A DNA stretch of 40,641 nucleotides. Origin: Deltaproteobacteria bacterium. Its GTDB lineage: Bacteria > Desulfobacterota > Desulfomonilia > UBA1062. The stretch covers positions 1-40,641 of the forward strand of contig JAJFUP010000081.1 of assembly GCA_021372395.1 (NCBI GenBank). The letters run 5' to 3'. Positions within the stretch are counted from its first letter, which is position 1. Each line of letters begins with the position of its first letter. Positions 24,743-30,548 of this stretch are shown piece by piece. The notes beneath the pieces are model-generated. The model worked only from the letters and a program-made list of their open reading frames with translations. It ran no database searches and was not told the origin of the DNA. A program made the translations under genes and the position numbers.

Positions 24743-24815
24743 GAGCCAGTAGCTCAGTTGGTAGAGCATCGGACTTTTAATCCGGTGGTCGAGGGTTCGA
24801 GTCCCTCCTGGCTCA
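24743..24815 (+). tRNA. tRNA-Lys (anticodon UUU)
   Basis: The acceptor arms GAGCCAG and CTGGCTC pair over 7 bases (24743-24749 with 24808-24814). The D arm GCTCAGTTGGTAGAGC is standard. The anticodon loop CTTTTAA carries TTT at 24776-24778. The T arm is GAGGG-TTCGAGT-CCCTC and the discriminator is A. CCA is not encoded. Confidence 0.97.
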
Positions 24816-24821
24816 CTGAAA

Positions 24822-24899
24822 GTCCCCATCGTCTAGCCTGGCCCAGGACACCGGCCTTTCACGCCGGCGACAGGGGTTCAAATCCCCTTGGGGACGCCA
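24822..24899 (+). tRNA. tRNA-Glu (anticodon UUC)
   Basis: GTCCCCA (24822-24828) pairs with TGGGGAC (24889-24895), followed by G and an encoded CCA (24897-24899). The anticodon stem CCGGC/GCCGG encloses CTTTCAC with anticodon TTC at 24858-24860. The T arm is AGGGG-TTCAAAT-CCCCT. It lies six bases after tRNA-Lys, so the two are probably one transcript. Confidence 0.97.
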
Positions 24900-24908
24900 A
24901 TTATTACC

Positions 24909-24938
24909 GGGGGTTACGATGTGAATCGTGCCCCTTTT
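24909..24938 (+). terminator. Terminator of the tRNA-Lys/tRNA-Glu transcript
   Basis: GGGG plus ACGAT pairs with ATCGT plus CCCC around a GTGA loop, with a one-base bulge, and TTTT follows directly. It starts ten bases after the encoded CCA of tRNA-Glu. Confidence 0.65.
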
Positions 24939-25117
24939 CCATTTCCGGCTGTCCAGTCCACCCATCTTCTCCCCAGCCTCTGCAGCGGGAATCATTCCAG
25001 CATGGCTGTTCAGTCTATGCCCGAGAGATACTCACATCAATCGGTGAGGTTATTGAGACAGGAGATAACATCGATACAGCCGGCAAAGGCAGAGACGGTG
25101 ACAATGCTTCAACCCCA

Positions 25118-25146
25118 TTGACAAGCCATTTCGTCTGCTGTATCTG
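25118..25146 (+). promoter_or_regulatory. Candidate promoter of the Tyr-rich repeat RiPP operon
   Basis: A perfect TTGACA (25118-25123) is followed after exactly 17 bases by TATCTG (25141-25146), a weak -10. The expected transcript start near 25153 leaves a leader of about 36 bases. The leader includes GGGaAGCA (25151-25158) able to pair with TGCTCCC (25170-25176), directly before the AAGAAGG ribosome site. Confidence 0.45.
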
Positions 25147-25188
25147 TTAAGGGAAGCAGCTTACGATCATGCTCCCAAGAAGGTTACT

Positions 25189-25623
25189 ATGACAGACCAG
25201 CCAAAAGACAACATCAAGAACGCAGATCAGACTGACAAGGCACCTGACGCACCCATTACCAGGAGAGATGCCATCAAGCGGATCTCCAAGGTGGTGATTG
25301 CCTCCGGTGCGGTGGCATCCATCCCCGGCCTGTTCGCATCAAAGGCCTCTGCCGAGGACACAGAGTACAGCAATTACTGCAATTACACCAACTATGCGGA
25401 CTACACCAATTATGCGAACCAGAAGTACGGGAACTACACTGCCTACGGCAACTACAAGAATGTCGCGAACTATGCAAACTACTATAACAAGGGCACGGGG
25501 AATTACCTGAACTATGCCAACTACACCAACTGGCAGGACTACATAAACTACACGAATTACGGGGATTACGCGAATTACACGAACTACACGAATTACGCGA
25601 ATTACGCGAACCACTGCAAGTAA
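25189..25623 (+). CDS. Tat-exported Asn-Tyr-x repeat protein, candidate RiPP precursor
   Basis: This 144-residue protein has two parts. Residues 1-55 are a long Tat signal: a charged start, TRRDAIKRISK with the Arg pair at 25-26, a hydrophobic stretch (VVIASGAVASIPGLFA) and a cleavage-like ASA at 53-55. Residues 56-144 consist almost wholly of Asn-Tyr-x triplets: 24 Tyr, 22 Asn and 23 [Tyr/Trp]-x-[Asn/Asp] motifs, 12 of them in unbroken register at 106-141. One repeat uses Trp (W115-Q-D117). Cys occur only at 64 and 143, near the ends of the repeat. AAGAAGG five bases before the ATG is a good ribosome site. Radical SAM genes follow immediately, so I infer a modified peptide substrate. A structural or adhesive surface protein is the alternative. 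I know of no named family with this repeat. Confidence 0.8.
   Translation: MTDQPKDNIKNADQTDKAPDAPITRRDAIKRISKVVIASGAVASIPGLFASKASAEDTEYSNYCNYTNYADYTNYANQKYGNYTAYGNYKNVANYANYYNKGTGNYLNYANYTNWQDYINYTNYGDYANYTNYTNYANYANHCK
25356..25620 (+). repeat. Degenerate 9-base tandem repeat encoding Asn-Tyr-Ala/Thr
   Basis: The unit is roughly AAYTAYRCS, read as Asn-Tyr-(Ala/Thr). It is repeated with synonymous variation throughout the 3' two-thirds of the gene. The tightest run is 25506-25612. Third-position differences (AAC/AAT, TAC/TAT) between units show that the protein sequence, not the DNA, is being conserved. Confidence 0.85.
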
Positions 25624-25666
25624 CAAACCGGTTATGGAACACCTTTCCTGGTAAGCCTGGCATACC

Positions 25667-26665
25667 ATGGCGAATTTGCTGCTGACCACGAGATGTGTCC
25701 GTTCCTGTCCGTACTGCTTTGCCAAGAACGAGATGGCCGAGTCCGATCCGAATGATACCGTGTCGTGGGAGAACATCGTATACCTGGCAGACTTTCTCAT
25801 ACAGTCCGATGATCGCCACCTCGCACTGCTGGGTGGAGAGCCGACGCTCCATCCGCAGTTCGTTGATATCGTGCTCTACCTGCTCCAGAGGGGGCTCCAC
25901 GTCACCATCTTCACCAGCGGTGTGATGTCTGGCGAGCGGCTCGGGGAACTCGAGCGCCACCTCACGCAGATCTCCCCGGACAGGATCCAGTTCGTGTGCA
26001 ATCTCAACAATCCGGAACAAACTCCAGCGCCAGGAGGTGAACATGAGAAGCTGCACCGGTTCCTCACCACCCTGGGCCCCTGGACAACGCCGGGATTCAA
26101 CATCTACAGAACGGATTTCGACCTCGCCTTCATCTTCGAGTACATCTCCCGCTTCGGGATGCAGGGGCAGTTGCGTCTCGGCCTCGCGAGCCCCATCGCC
26201 AGGCAGGACAACCTGTACATCGGCAAGCAGGACATGAAAGGCGTCATCGACAGGCTCTACGGTTTCCGGCATCTCTTCGAGAGGTTCAGGGTGAGACCCA
26301 ACCTCGACTGCGGGTTCCCGCTCTGCTTCTTCTCGGACGAGCAGCTCGGGTGGTTCTTCCGCATGACGGGCACGGTGAACTTCGGCTGCGGGCCGGCCAT
26401 CGACATAAAGCCCAACATGGATGTGTACAGCTGTTTCCCTCTTTCCACCATCCACAAGAGGTCGCTCTATGAGTTCAACTCCATCCAGGAGGTCGCTGCC
26501 TTCTACATCGGCCTTCACGACCAGATACGCCAGGATTTCCCCGGTGCGTTCGAGGAGTGCGTCCCCTGCATCTTCCGGAACGAGAACCGCTGCTCCGGTG
26601 GTGGCGTATGCCACATACTGAGACAGGTTGCCGATGAAACCGCCGATCCTCGTCTGTCCGTATAA
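25667..26665 (+). CDS. Radical SAM/SPASM-like peptide maturase
   Basis: This 332-residue protein starts MANLLLTTRCVRSCPYCFAKNEM, with the cluster motif C10-x3-C14-x2-C17. LLGGEPTLHP (GGEP at about 56-59) is the SAM-binding turn of radical SAM enzymes. The C-terminal third has extra cysteines (NLDCGFPLC, FGCGP, VYSCFP and then C298, C301, C309, C315), a SPASM-like pattern that in peptide maturases binds auxiliary iron-sulphur clusters. It lies 43 bases after the repeat-protein gene, which suggests that protein is its substrate. It overlaps the next gene by 32 bases. The ribosome site is weak, so translation may depend on the upstream gene. The chemistry is not shown by sequence; cross-linking of the Tyr-x-Asn repeats is inferred. 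Confidence 0.85.
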   Translation: MANLLLTTRCVRSCPYCFAKNEMAESDPNDTVSWENIVYLADFLIQSDDRHLALLGGEPTLHPQFVDIVLYLLQRGLHVTIFTSGVMSGERLGELERHLTQISPDRIQFVCNLNNPEQTPAPGGEHEKLHRFLTTLGPWTTPGFNIYRTDFDLAFIFEYISRFGMQGQLRLGLASPIARQDNLYIGKQDMKGVIDRLYGFRHLFERFRVRPNLDCGFPLCFFSDEQLGWFFRMTGTVNFGCGPAIDIKPNMDVYSCFPLSTIHKRSLYEFNSIQEVAAFYIGLHDQIRQDFPGAFEECVPCIFRNENRCSGGGVCHILRQVADETADPRLSV

Positions 26666-27500
26666 TCGTTTGCTGCTCGATCAGATCGGCGGTCATGATA
26701 TCGTCGTCAGGGTCGAGAACCCCCCGGACATCCCCCGGGCAGCCGAAGATGTCCGATGCTCGGGCAAGGCCCTGCACAGCGTCATCATCGAGACCCGGCA
26801 GCCGCTGAGCGCTTTCCGCCCCCAGGACGACTGGGTCGGCATCCCCATCGCATTGTTCGTGCCCGGGATGGGCAACTTCCGGGATGTCGCCCCCTGGGTC
26901 GGAAGCATCCGGGACCTCAAGATGCACGTGTACCTGTCTGCCGGCGACAGGGAAAACCTCACCAGTTGCCGTGTTCTTGCATCCCTGGGAGTCACCTGCT
27001 GTCTCGTCTTCGACACCACGGAGCCGGATTGGGAGGCCCTTTCGGATCTTATGACCTGGGCCGTCTTCGCTCCCTCCTCCCATGCCCCCGTCGAACCTTT
27101 CCATCACGTTGCCGTCCATCACAATCCCGGCGCCTACGTTGATTGGGGAGTGGTCTATTTCGATGGGCCGGGGGCCTTTCTCCATCTGGATTCGGCCGGC
27201 CGGGTGGCCCTGTCTCACCGGGAGCTTCAAAACGGCTCGTTCATCACGGAACATGTGTCCCTGCTGGGCGATCCCTTCGAGAACGAGGGATATCGAAACG
27301 CCTTGAACGCCTGGCGGCACTATTTTCTGAGTGATCATCCCTGCATCGCGTGCGAGGGATGGAAGATCTGCATGGGAAGATTCGGCATGAACGGGAGGCA
27401 TGCCCCGGGATGCCGGGCCTTTGCTTCAGACATGTTGGCCGAGATAGAACAATACAAAGGCCGGCAGCAGGAAGAACAGGCAGAGAGGGCACCTTCATGA
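26634..27500 (+). CDS. Radical-SAM-like protein without the SAM-cluster motif, SPASM-like tail
   Basis: The 288-residue protein has no CxxxCxxC motif, but its last 75 residues resemble a SPASM region: HLDSAGRVAL, VSLLGDPFENEGYRNALNAWRHYFL, and then CIACEGWKICMGRF and a final GC. The first 200 residues show alternating beta and alpha segments, like a degenerate barrel (VVRVENPPD, SVIIETRQPL, MHVYLSAGDRENL, CCLVFDTTEPDW). I infer a non-catalytic partner of the two radical SAM enzymes, perhaps for substrate recognition. Homology to a known family is not certain. ATG 26634 has AGACAGG seven bases before it; TTG 26628 is an alternative. Its stop overlaps the next ATG (ATGA at 27497-27500). Confidence 0.65.
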   Translation: MKPPILVCPYNRLLLDQIGGHDIVVRVENPPDIPRAAEDVRCSGKALHSVIIETRQPLSAFRPQDDWVGIPIALFVPGMGNFRDVAPWVGSIRDLKMHVYLSAGDRENLTSCRVLASLGVTCCLVFDTTEPDWEALSDLMTWAVFAPSSHAPVEPFHHVAVHHNPGAYVDWGVVYFDGPGAFLHLDSAGRVALSHRELQNGSFITEHVSLLGDPFENEGYRNALNAWRHYFLSDHPCIACEGWKICMGRFGMNGRHAPGCRAFASDMLAEIEQYKGRQQEEQAERAPS

Positions 27501-29563
27501 AAACCATCATCTTCAAGGCAACCGACCTGTGCAATTCCAACTGCATCTATTGCCACGCGATCAGAAAAGACCCGCACGCCATAAAGACGATGCCCCTGGA
27601 CATTCTCGAGCAGTTCTTTGCGAGAGCGAACGCCTTTCTCATGGAACAGCCCGAAGAGACCCTGAAGATCATCTGGCACGGCGGGGAGCCGCTGATGCTC
27701 GGACCCGATTATTTCTCCCGGGCACTGGAGTTCAAGGAGGATCTCTGCAGGGACACAGGTTCGCGCATATCCTTCGACATGCAGAGCAACCTCACCCTGT
27801 TCTCCCGGGAGTATGTGGATGTCTTCCAGCGGATGGGAATCAGGACCATAGGCACCAGTTTCGAGCTGCTGCCCGGGGTCCGGGGACGTGGAGGCAAGGA
27901 AGGCTCGGATATCTACAACCGGCAGTTCATTCGGGCAGTCTCGTTGCTGGAGCATGAAGGGCTCTCGTGGGGGATCATCTATGTGGTGACCAGGCCCTCG
28001 CTGAAAAACCCCCTCGAACTGTTCCGCACCCTGACCAACTTCGTCCCCTCCTCCTCGGTCATGTTCAACCCCGTCACCTTTCACAAGGCAGGGCCCGACC
28101 AGATAGCCATATCCCCTGAGGAATTCGTGGATTTCCTCGGCGAGATCTTTCCCGAGTGGTGGTGCAAACGGGAGAGGTATCAAGGTGTAGACCCCTTCCA
28201 TTCCCTGACAGACAACCTCATGAAAGGCGGCGAGTCGCTCTTGTGCGTCGACTCGGGCAGATGCGCCGACACGCATCTCTGCGTGAGCCCAGACGGCATG
28301 GCCTGGCAGTGCGGGAGATCCGCCGACTGGGACCTGATGAGGTATGGATCGATCGTGGATCTTTCCCTCAAGGAGATCCTGGAACACCCTGACAAGGAGA
28401 TGCTGAGAACGAGACCCCGGGTATTGAAAGACGGCGAGTGCAGCGGCTGCCGTTTCTGGGACATCTGCCACGGCGGTTGCCCGCTGGATGCCCTTGCAGA
28501 GACCGGGTCCATCATGCATAAATCCCCGTGGTGCGGGACGAAGAAAGGGTTCATCGAAAAGTATTTCGAGCCCATCACGGGCTTCAGGTACCCATCGCCT
28601 GTCCTGCAGTATGGAGAACCGGGAACCGGACACAACGAGGCAACCGCCGTGCCCTCTGTCGCGTCATGTCCCCCGGGCTGCTCCACCGGAATACGCACGC
28701 AGGATGATGCGCCATGGATAGGGCCCGTCGAATGCATGGACGATGCCTTGATGGTATCCGGGATATTGAACCAGCTTGTCGAAGAAAACCCTTCGAAGAG
28801 ATTCAACCTGGTTTTCAGAGCGAGCTACCGGGAGATCTTTCAGGGGCACCCCGCCATCTCTGAATTCGGCCTGCCGCCCCAGGGAACAACACCGATCCGC
28901 TTGAGCTGCCGCAGCAATGGGGATATTCCCTCTCCTTCCACGAGCGCCTACCAGCTTCTGGCCGGCCTGCTCGGGTTGAAAACTCCTGCAGCAGAAGAGC
29001 TTTTTGTTCCCTGGAAGTTCGAGGATGATCCATCTCTCCTCGAATCCATCCCGTGGAGAAAGCCCAATATCCTCATCTGTCCCTTCTCCGAAACACCAAG
29101 AACGCGGATTGATATCCGTACATGGGAAGAGCTTGCGGCGAGACTGATCGTCGATGGTTTCGGTGTCATGCAGCTGGCAAACATGCGGCAGCCTCATATA
29201 CGTGGCGCCTACAGCATACGCGGGCTGCTCGATGTGAGACGGATGATATCTTTCGTGCGTCACTTCGATCTGGTCATCACATCGAACAATATGTTCATGC
29301 ACATTGCCCGACTCCACGAGATACCTGCCCTCGTGCTGTGGGGACCGAGCGATCACGGCTTCTACGGCTATACCGGCCACTCCCATCTTCAGGGCAAGAG
29401 GACATGCGCGAATGCAGGAGGCTGCATCGGGCCCCTGACGGATGGCCGCCTCTCCTCCCCATGTCCCATGGGGGATGATCACTGCATGAACACATTGAAA
29501 GCAGAAGCGATCTATCAGGCTGCCCTTGAAATAGCCGGGACGCCGACCTCTTCAGGAAGGTGA
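27497..29563 (+). CDS. Fusion: radical SAM/SPASM maturase with C-terminal GT9 glycosyltransferase domain
   Basis: The 688-residue protein joins two enzymes. Residues 1-360 are radical SAM/SPASM: C12-x3-C16-x2-C19 in DLCNSNCIYCHA, GGEP at 62-65, and a C-terminal cysteine set (LLCVDSGRC, HLCVSPDG, WQCGRSAD, ECSGCRFWDICHGGCPLDAL, PWCGTK). Residues about 405-685 resemble GT9 heptosyltransferases: MDDALMVSGILNQLVEENP at the N-lobe, then a C-lobe with DLVITSNNMFMHIARLHEIPALVLWGPSD. In GT9 proteins the usual SnD position before the HxA motif is Asp; here it is Asn. The ATG at 27497 overlaps the previous stop, with GAGAGGG upstream; a frame opening at 27350 is an unlikely start. I infer modification plus glycosylation of the repeat peptide. 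Confidence 0.82.
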   Translation: MKTIIFKATDLCNSNCIYCHAIRKDPHAIKTMPLDILEQFFARANAFLMEQPEETLKIIWHGGEPLMLGPDYFSRALEFKEDLCRDTGSRISFDMQSNLTLFSREYVDVFQRMGIRTIGTSFELLPGVRGRGGKEGSDIYNRQFIRAVSLLEHEGLSWGIIYVVTRPSLKNPLELFRTLTNFVPSSSVMFNPVTFHKAGPDQIAISPEEFVDFLGEIFPEWWCKRERYQGVDPFHSLTDNLMKGGESLLCVDSGRCADTHLCVSPDGMAWQCGRSADWDLMRYGSIVDLSLKEILEHPDKEMLRTRPRVLKDGECSGCRFWDICHGGCPLDALAETGSIMHKSPWCGTKKGFIEKYFEPITGFRYPSPVLQYGEPGTGHNEATAVPSVASCPPGCSTGIRTQDDAPWIGPVECMDDALMVSGILNQLVEENPSKRFNLVFRASYREIFQGHPAISEFGLPPQGTTPIRLSCRSNGDIPSPSTSAYQLLAGLLGLKTPAAEELFVPWKFEDDPSLLESIPWRKPNILICPFSETPRTRIDIRTWEELAARLIVDGFGVMQLANMRQPHIRGAYSIRGLLDVRRMISFVRHFDLVITSNNMFMHIARLHEIPALVLWGPSDHGFYGYTGHSHLQGKRTCANAGGCIGPLTDGRLSSPCPMGDDHCMNTLKAEAIYQAALEIAGTPTSSGR

Positions 29564-29577
29564 TCCCTTTCCGGTCT
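29542..29577. terminator. Hairpin between convergent genes
   Basis: GACC...GGAAGG pairs imperfectly with CCCTTTCC...GGTC around the stop codon of the fusion gene, 14 bases before the convergent response-regulator stop. It could serve both strands, but no strong T-run is present. Confidence 0.35.
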
Positions 29578-30548
29578 CAGTTGCCGCGTCCGGCACTCTC
29601 GAGGTCACCGCTCGCGACGATGGATGAAAAGCATTCCACGAGCTTCGGATCAAGCACGTTTTCTTTCATGGATATGAGCATTTCCAGGGCCAGCTCCGGG
29701 GTATATGCCTTCCGGTAAGGCCGCTCGGTGGTCAGGGCATCATAAATGTCAGCCACGCTGACAATCCTGGCCTCGAGGGGTATCTCTTCTGCCTGCAGAC
29801 CCGATGGATACCCTTTCCCGTCATACCGCTCATGGTGTGAAAGGATGATATTCACGATCATGTCGGAGAGCCTGGCCTTCCTGGCTACATCAGCCCCCCA
29901 CAGGGGATGGTTCCTGATGATATGGATATCGGCTTCATCGAGCGGCCCCTCGTTATTGAGGATGTTTTCCGAGACGCCGATCTTTCCGCAGTCATGGAGC
30001 CAACTCCCATAGCGAATGGCCTTCAACTCATCTTCATCCAAGCCGAGATGACGTGCGATCAACAGCGCATATCGCGCAACACGCTCGGAATGTCCCCTGG
30101 TGTAGGGATCCTTGAGCTCGAGGGCATGAACCAGGGAACGCATGGTATTCTCGTCCCCTCGGATTATGGACTTGATGAGCCGGTATCGTTTCAGGGCATC
30201 CTCGACAAGACCCACGAGCTGGGTGTTCTCCCACGGTTTCACGATGAAGCGGAAGACCTCCACCCTGTTGATGGCCTCAAGTGCCGTCTCAAGGTCGGCA
30301 AACCCGGTCATCAGGATCTTCACCGTTTCCGGAGAGAGGGCCTTGACCCGGGAAAGGAGATCGATCCCCCTCATGCCGGGCATATGGTTGTCGGAAACCA
30401 GGACGGCAATCTCATGCGTACGCACTACATCGAGCGCCTCGGCGGCATTTCTTGCCGTGAGGATTTCTATACCGCTCTCCATGAAGATCTGTGAGGCGAT
30501 TTCGAGGATGTACTCTTCATCATCAACGAACAGGATCTCTTCAGCCAT
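29577..30548 (-). CDS. Response regulator with HD-GYP output domain
   Basis: The 323-residue protein has an N-terminal receiver domain (residues 1-120). It has acidic pocket DDEE near 9-12, the phosphoacceptor Asp at 53 in VSDNHMPG and Lys in IVKPW. A C-terminal HD-GYP domain follows: HALELKDPYTRGHSERVARYA, the metal-binding HDCGKIG, HHERYDGKGYPSGL and VADIYDALTTERPYR. HD-GYP domains hydrolyse cyclic di-GMP, so the protein probably lowers c-di-GMP in response to a sensor kinase. No kinase is adjacent. c-di-GMP often controls pili, and pilBTC begins 1 kb away on the other strand, but the link is inference. Confidence 0.93.
   Translation of the reverse strand: MAEEILFVDDEEYILEIASQIFMESGIEILTARNAAEALDVVRTHEIAVLVSDNHMPGMRGIDLLSRVKALSPETVKILMTGFADLETALEAINRVEVFRFIVKPWENTQLVGLVEDALKRYRLIKSIIRGDENTMRSLVHALELKDPYTRGHSERVARYALLIARHLGLDEDELKAIRYGSWLHDCGKIGVSENILNNEGPLDEADIHIIRNHPLWGADVARKARLSDMIVNIILSHHERYDGKGYPSGLQAEEIPLEARIVSVADIYDALTTERPYRKAYTPELALEMLISMKENVLDPKLVECFSSIVASGDLESAGRGN

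Follow-up and report, generated by a model that had tools for sequence, protein, structure and literature searches.

A RiPP-like radical SAM cassette for an exported tyrosine-rich repeat protein with probable cyclophane-linked triplets

The window (the whole 40,641-nucleotide stretch of DNA that was analysed, from a Deltaproteobacteria bacterium) encodes what we consider probable to be a RiPP-like cassette for an exported tyrosine-rich protein, with cyclophane-linked triplets and export through the Tat pathway. This explanation builds on established parts, namely a motif rule in the repeat core, a conserved cassette, the predicted fold of protein B and a genetic link to Tat. The cassette consists, in this order, of a precursor gene and genes A, B and C, the last spanning 27497-29563 (Table 1). 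The enzyme genes overlap, A with B by about 32 bases and B with C by ATGA, which suggests a single operon; for B, the ATG at 26634 is a likelier start than the TTG at 26628 of the listed open reading frame.

Table 1 Features of the cassette, with positions in the window
Feature	Position	Strand	Evidence
Precursor gene, 144-aa protein	25189..25623	+	ORF; homologs adjoin nearly all related cassettes
Twin-arginine-type leader TRRDAIKRISKVVIASGAVASIPGLFASKASA, putative cleavage after SKASA	25258..25353	+	Leader HMM E 6.5e-16 (window leader part of the training set)
Core, residues 56-144: 20 YxN, 2 YxD, 1 WxD	25354..25620	+	Motif count; aligned to L033, L035
Gene A, radical SAM enzyme, 332 aa, CxxxCxxC and conserved C-terminal Cys set	25667..26665	+	PF04055 E 2e-13
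Gene B, predicted pseudo-radical-SAM/SPASM protein	26634..27500	+	Alignment, predicted model, structure matches; overlaps A
Gene C N-terminal half, radical SAM/SPASM enzyme	27497..28591	+	NCBIfam matches, 32-row profile; ATG overlaps B stop
Gene C C-terminal half, GT9 (heptosyltransferase-like) domain	28688..29563	+	PF01075 E 3.6e-05

Our recount of the precursor core agreed with the original prediction that residues 56-144 carry 23 aromatic-x-Asn/Asp motifs of the types given in Table 1, whereas 10,000 composition-preserving shuffles averaged 7.2 and did not exceed 14. Counted by offset, 23 aromatic-Asn/Asp pairs fall at +2, one at +1 and none at +3 or +4. The 12 consecutive terminal motifs said to stand in register are the final 12, at residues 106-141, and the irregular sites are YTA at 83, Tyr 99 in the middle of YYN, and VAN at 92-94, the last aligned with YAN in the relative L033. 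Codons of the repeat differ synonymously (TAC/TAT, AAC/AAT), so that it did not arise by recent duplication at the DNA level, and the repeat itself seems to account for the long antisense ORFs that cover the gene. The core is bracketed by Cys 64 and Cys 143, both of which had been pointed out previously and are invariant in the alignment with L033 and L035, as if they closed the chain. Such flanking Cys occur around the motif array of the window (25378-25617) and of L033, L035, L048, L052 and L057, and other clades have none.

The motif rule extends to related loci. Pooled over 36 cores, which are related within clades and so not fully independent, 755 non-aromatic residues stand two places after Tyr or Trp, and 92.7% of them are N, S, D, R, K, Q or E; shuffles that leave each Tyr in place and permute the rest give 73.5 +/- 1.2%. 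A check on motif spacing among homologs, suggested with the original prediction, showed that the Tyr-x-partner pair is kept while the spacing of the units shifts from 3 to 4, 5, 7 or 8: at Tyr-Tyr gaps of 3, 4, 5, 7 and 8, N, S, D, R, K or Q occupied +2 in 92, 96, 83, 83 and 100% of cases (n = 6 each at gaps 7 and 8), positions other than +2 being clearly lower in these residues. The preference was weaker at gap 6 (67%). Its persistence across different Tyr-Tyr distances sets it apart from simple periodicity. Asn and Asp had a Tyr two places ahead in 72-75% of cases, and Gly, Ala and Thr had one immediately ahead in 34-49% and two places ahead in only 7-11%. The +2 rule is explained neither by composition nor by Tyr placement.

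Clades of very different core sequence obey the rule, including YxN cores of period 3 (window, L033, L035, L056, L061), YxN/YxR cores (L022, L034), a YYYNYGD core (L023), YxS cores of period 3-4 (L037, L038, L040, L042, L065) and short Elusimicrobia cores (YTN-YSQ-YTQ-YGK-YAD-YVN in L048; L057 similar). The GYGVSGDYVASG repeats of a Chlorobiaceae cassette (L036:7442-7831) mostly break it, with 3 motifs for 9 Tyr. Tyr-Tyr runs are found in many Bacteroidota cores, so that not every Tyr can start a ring. Both observations count against the cyclophane reading. Unmodified Tyr-rich structural repeats do exist, and the core might be a low-complexity protein of this kind, with the radical SAM enzymes acting elsewhere; we regard this as improbable, because the precursors adjoin the cassette, share one leader and obey the +2 rule beyond composition or Tyr placement.

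In published triceptides, a Trp, Phe, Tyr or His is linked to the beta carbon of the residue at i+2, which is Arg, Asn, Asp, Ser or Ala, and the joining of Tyr C3 to Asp (YxdB) and to Arg (YhhB) is proven (PMC11002830). Given the +2 rule in 36 cores and the published partners N, S, D and R, the aromatic-x-Asn rule of the original prediction holds at +2, once widened from Asn as such to residues with a beta-CH2. A strict Asn-partner rule was accordingly dropped in favour of such residues (N, S, D and R, with K or Q more rarely). What is tolerated and what is avoided at +2 fits a need for a beta-CH2, and by analogy with the triceptides we infer that a cross-link from the aromatic ring to C-beta is the best-supported reading.

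In the mechanism that we propose, the conserved leader would cause the precursor to be recognised in the cytosol, and enzyme C, aided by enzyme A and pseudo-enzyme B, would abstract a beta-hydrogen from the residue at +2 of each Tyr or Trp. That beta carbon would then be joined to the aromatic ring (Tyr C3 to C-beta, by analogy with YxdB and YhhB), with 2 H lost per motif and up to 23 non-overlapping motifs in the window core. The GT9 domain, where present, may decorate the product, and the stiffened chain would pass through Tat, after which signal peptidase would free it or, in some ten relatives, it would be retained as a lipoprotein.

The system resembles the triceptide enzymes XncB, OscB/GrrM, MscB, YxdB, YhhB and HaaB in that a precursor with aromatic-x-[N/D/S/R] motifs stands beside a SPASM radical SAM enzyme, and it has partner residues in common with them, including Tyr-Asp and Tyr-Arg (PMC11002830). 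The sequence features that mark triceptides, aromatic-x-known-partner motifs and an adjacent SPASM maturase with CxxxCxxC in conserved synteny, were both found. It differs in its Tat leader (sometimes with a lipobox), its Tyr-dominated core of up to about 50 motifs, its second radical SAM enzyme, pseudo-enzyme B and the GT9 fusion, and C lies under the model cut-offs of the triceptide families GrrM, XyeB and YhhB. The triceptide-type reading proposed at the outset is partly supported, the pair rule among homologs being in its favour. It does not take in the twin-arginine leader, B, GT9 or the presence of two radical SAM enzymes.

Judging from its profile matches, C is a relative of the cyclophane synthases and of sulfatase maturase, and a member of no curated family. 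Its NCBIfam matches, all below cut-off, were DynA (3.6e-40), anSME (3.3e-38), DarE, DarW, AmcB, YhhB, GrrM and FxsB. In bits over cut-off, C scored best on DynA (138/450), with 131.7/349.45 on the anaerobic sulfatase maturase TIGR03942, 107/650 on DarE, 85/425 on AmcB, 68/445 on YhhB, 64/310 on GrrM/OscB, 60/370 on FxsB, 51/450 on XyeB and 50/370 on HxsB; with such values for GrrM, FxsB and HxsB, none of the maturase groups originally named fits. Invariant Cys in the C family are 12, 16 and 19 (CxxxCxxC) and the SPASM Cys. An AlphaFold2 model of full-length C (4-row alignment) had a pLDDT of 47.6 and is the basis of no structural claim.

C falls below every curated cyclophane-maturase cut-off and scores on sulfatase maturase, an enzyme that forms no cross-link, at much the same level as on the cyclophane families; both points are evidence against the cyclophane reading. 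C could be an oxidase akin to anaerobic sulfatase maturase, performing a formylglycine-type side-chain oxidation without a cross-link, and anSME, which has the SPASM architecture in common with C, is indeed its best solved match (4k37, E 2.2e-30 with the 32-row profile), nearly tied with DynA. We nevertheless hold this to be very improbable: Asp277, the acidic residue after the anSME cluster Cys (PCDFY) and one that we take to be catalytic, is replaced by Gly in the C family (QCGRS), and the +2 residues in the window are Asn or Asp rather than Ser or Cys. The substrate here, a Tyr-rich repeat, is a further difference from anSME.

The 32-row profile also matches ChlB (9gm3, E 1.3e-15), cited in PMC12636437 as a multiple cyclophane synthase. 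As is proposed for C, ChlB forms cyclophanes at more than one motif by radical SAM chemistry, but it is fused to an alpha-KG-HExxH hydroxylase and C to a GT9 domain. DynA and DarE, the dynobactin and darobactin maturases, are among the best-scoring families for C, which reaches only the bit scores given above; the antibiotics that they mature are short peptides containing few rings. According to PMC9055067, these two enzymes, among the closest to C, make ether, C-N and C-C links, and two complete radical SAM enzymes are retained in the cassette, which may mean two different modifications. Both observations lend weight to an alternative in which A and C modify the same residues by another radical reaction, be it an aryl ether (as with DarE), a Tyr-Tyr or C-alpha link or some other oxidation, and the i/i+2 rule would then reflect the spacing of the enzyme pocket and not a three-residue cyclophane. 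We judge it unlikely, if worth serious attention, since the +2 set (N, S, D, R, K, Q; not G, A, T) matches the known C-beta partners and, in the case of an ether, no heteroatom is common to the +2 residues.

In gene A, Cys 10, 14, 17, 215, 220, 241, 256, 298, 301 and 309 are invariant (alignment A1). B matched no Pfam or NCBIfam model, and the CxxxCxxC cluster motif is absent from all 24 rows of its alignment. That alignment has three invariant Cys (239, 242 and 248) and an almost invariant one (262), arranged as C-x2-C-x5-C-x(n)-C. The AlphaFold2 model of B from this alignment (pLDDT 90.7) had a weak best Foldseek match (E 3.3e-3), the top three being SPASM radical SAM enzymes. With VIA-align, twelve SPASM radical SAM chains ranked first (Z 12.9-9.2, 210-267 residues), led by 5why (12.9), 4k37 (12.7) and 8vpo (12.1) over 255-267 residues. 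On the strength of this predicted model, we call B a pseudo-radical-SAM/SPASM partner, a SPASM radical SAM fold without the SAM cluster motif. The pseudo-radical-SAM partners of IPR026418, as portrayed in PMC10352776, resemble B by description: they have no cluster motif, and their genes lie next to those of radical SAM enzymes and of a precursor.

The GT9 domain of C passed PF01075 marginally (23.7 bits against a gathering score of 22), and its activity is predicted. GT9 relatives were found in 19 of the 31 cassettes collected (see below), and some of the other 12 end near a contig edge. The usual sugar acceptors include Thr and not Asp. It is therefore highly improbable that glycosylation by GT9 is the main modification, with the polar residues as acceptors, given that Thr is nearly excluded at +2 and Asp is among the +2 residues. 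The fusion of the domain to C and its presence in those 19 cassettes favour such a role, but it was not found in the other 12, including L035, a close relative with precursor and enzymes close to the window's.

The leader HMM, built from 14 leaders including the window's, so that the scores of these members are not independent, found a precursor beside nearly every cassette, about twenty of them beyond the training set. The leaders combine RR with a hydrophobic stretch and finish in either an AxA-type site or a lipobox; RR is present in 34 of 36 (L052 and L060 being without it), and ten show a lipobox pattern, although pattern calls of this kind are crude. On TIGR01409, the leaders of the window (12.2) and of L048 (16.2) both scored under the cut-off of 16.7 bits. 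TatC is encoded in 30 of the 34 host genomes, the window's own included, and was not found in four draft genomes, one of them that of L060, whose leader also has no RR. Directly behind the precursors stand tatA and tatC in L056 and L061, and tatC in L053. Because tatC genes follow precursors in these three cassettes, export of the product through Tat is very probable, in some cases in lipoprotein form. Beside the L053 tatC, a single frame (L053:12206-13909) has by eye a TatA/B-like start and continues as a radical SAM/SPASM protein, possibly a fusion or two genes.

The Tat pathway transports folded proteins, which is in keeping with a chain that enzymes have already stiffened in the cytosol. 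Among the listed cassette neighbours there is no conserved gene for a leader protease, an ABC exporter or immunity, which speaks against a diffusible antibiotic, and the final role is most likely that of a cell-envelope component. A bolder proposal, which we offer tentatively and with more doubt than confidence, is that A, B and C define a new class of poly-cyclophane proteins, spread across phyla and anchored in the envelope. They would turn Tyr-x-[N/S/D/R] arrays into rods of 6 to about 50 rings, exported folded through Tat (through a TatAC pair of their own in some hosts), and these rods would be surface material with a structural or redox function, not antibiotics. If the chemistry is true, many uncultured lineages would make genetically encoded, very rigid polymers with up to dozens of consecutive cross-linked triplets, a ring number far above the few rings of well-known triceptides, and a RiPP-type product would be tied to the Tat pathway. 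Peptide engineering and materials work would further gain a cyclophane synthase that acts at many sites, and what pseudo-radical-SAM partners do could be put to a direct test.

Related loci were collected by searches with C and with A. Genes A, B and C stand in this order in 28 of 34 loci and in the window, L022 and L023, giving 31 cassettes (duplicates L021/L033 and L024/L038 taken once), hence 30 besides the window's, across many phyla and nearly all with a twin-arginine-leader, Tyr-rich precursor. Most of the six loci outside this count stop at a contig edge, the exceptions being L064 and L063, where 10.7 kb hold a homolog of A but neither B nor C; most host genomes are MAGs, so that absences are weak evidence. 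The MAG labels are Deltaproteobacteria, Syntrophaceae, Zymogenus, Bacteroidetes, Ignavibacteria, Chlorobiaceae, Nitrospirae, Nitrospinales, Gemmatimonadetes, Elusimicrobia and Spirochaetaceae, with Gammaproteobacteria for one related contig-end fragment. A search of plasmids gave as sole radical SAM relative a distant one in Candidatus Chlorohelix, and a genome scan with B alone, using back-translated patterns that were too specific, gave no matches. In the literature searched, no radical SAM system with Tat export or a Tyr-rich substrate came to light, and the portion of the Bacteroidales RiPP survey PMC10352776 available to us contains no such cassette.

At 24743-29622 of the window, the cassette lies between tRNA-Lys/tRNA-Glu and a gene for an HD-domain response regulator. 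It is absent from four same-genus genomes, in which the distance from tRNA-Glu to the regulator is about 0.1 kb (about 0.3 kb in one) versus 4.7 kb here, and the cassette is therefore a clean accessory module. A duplication of the tRNA end from integration was looked for at the locus, and no shared word of at least 10 bases was found.

Two gut Bacteroidales cassettes encode a similar protein directly after their precursors (L055:11910-12596 and L059:11146-11865), the latter with no match in Pfam. A distant cassette (L095:5639-6070, seen in L073/L095), with an A 36% identical, a TRRDFLK leader and YTN/YGA/YSR/YGK units, suggests that the family is wider than the collected set. Finally, a Gly-rich precursor with many Trp-x-Asn units (L027:11486-11953), resembling the GrrA-type triceptide precursors, adjoins a radical SAM enzyme ~27% identical to C.
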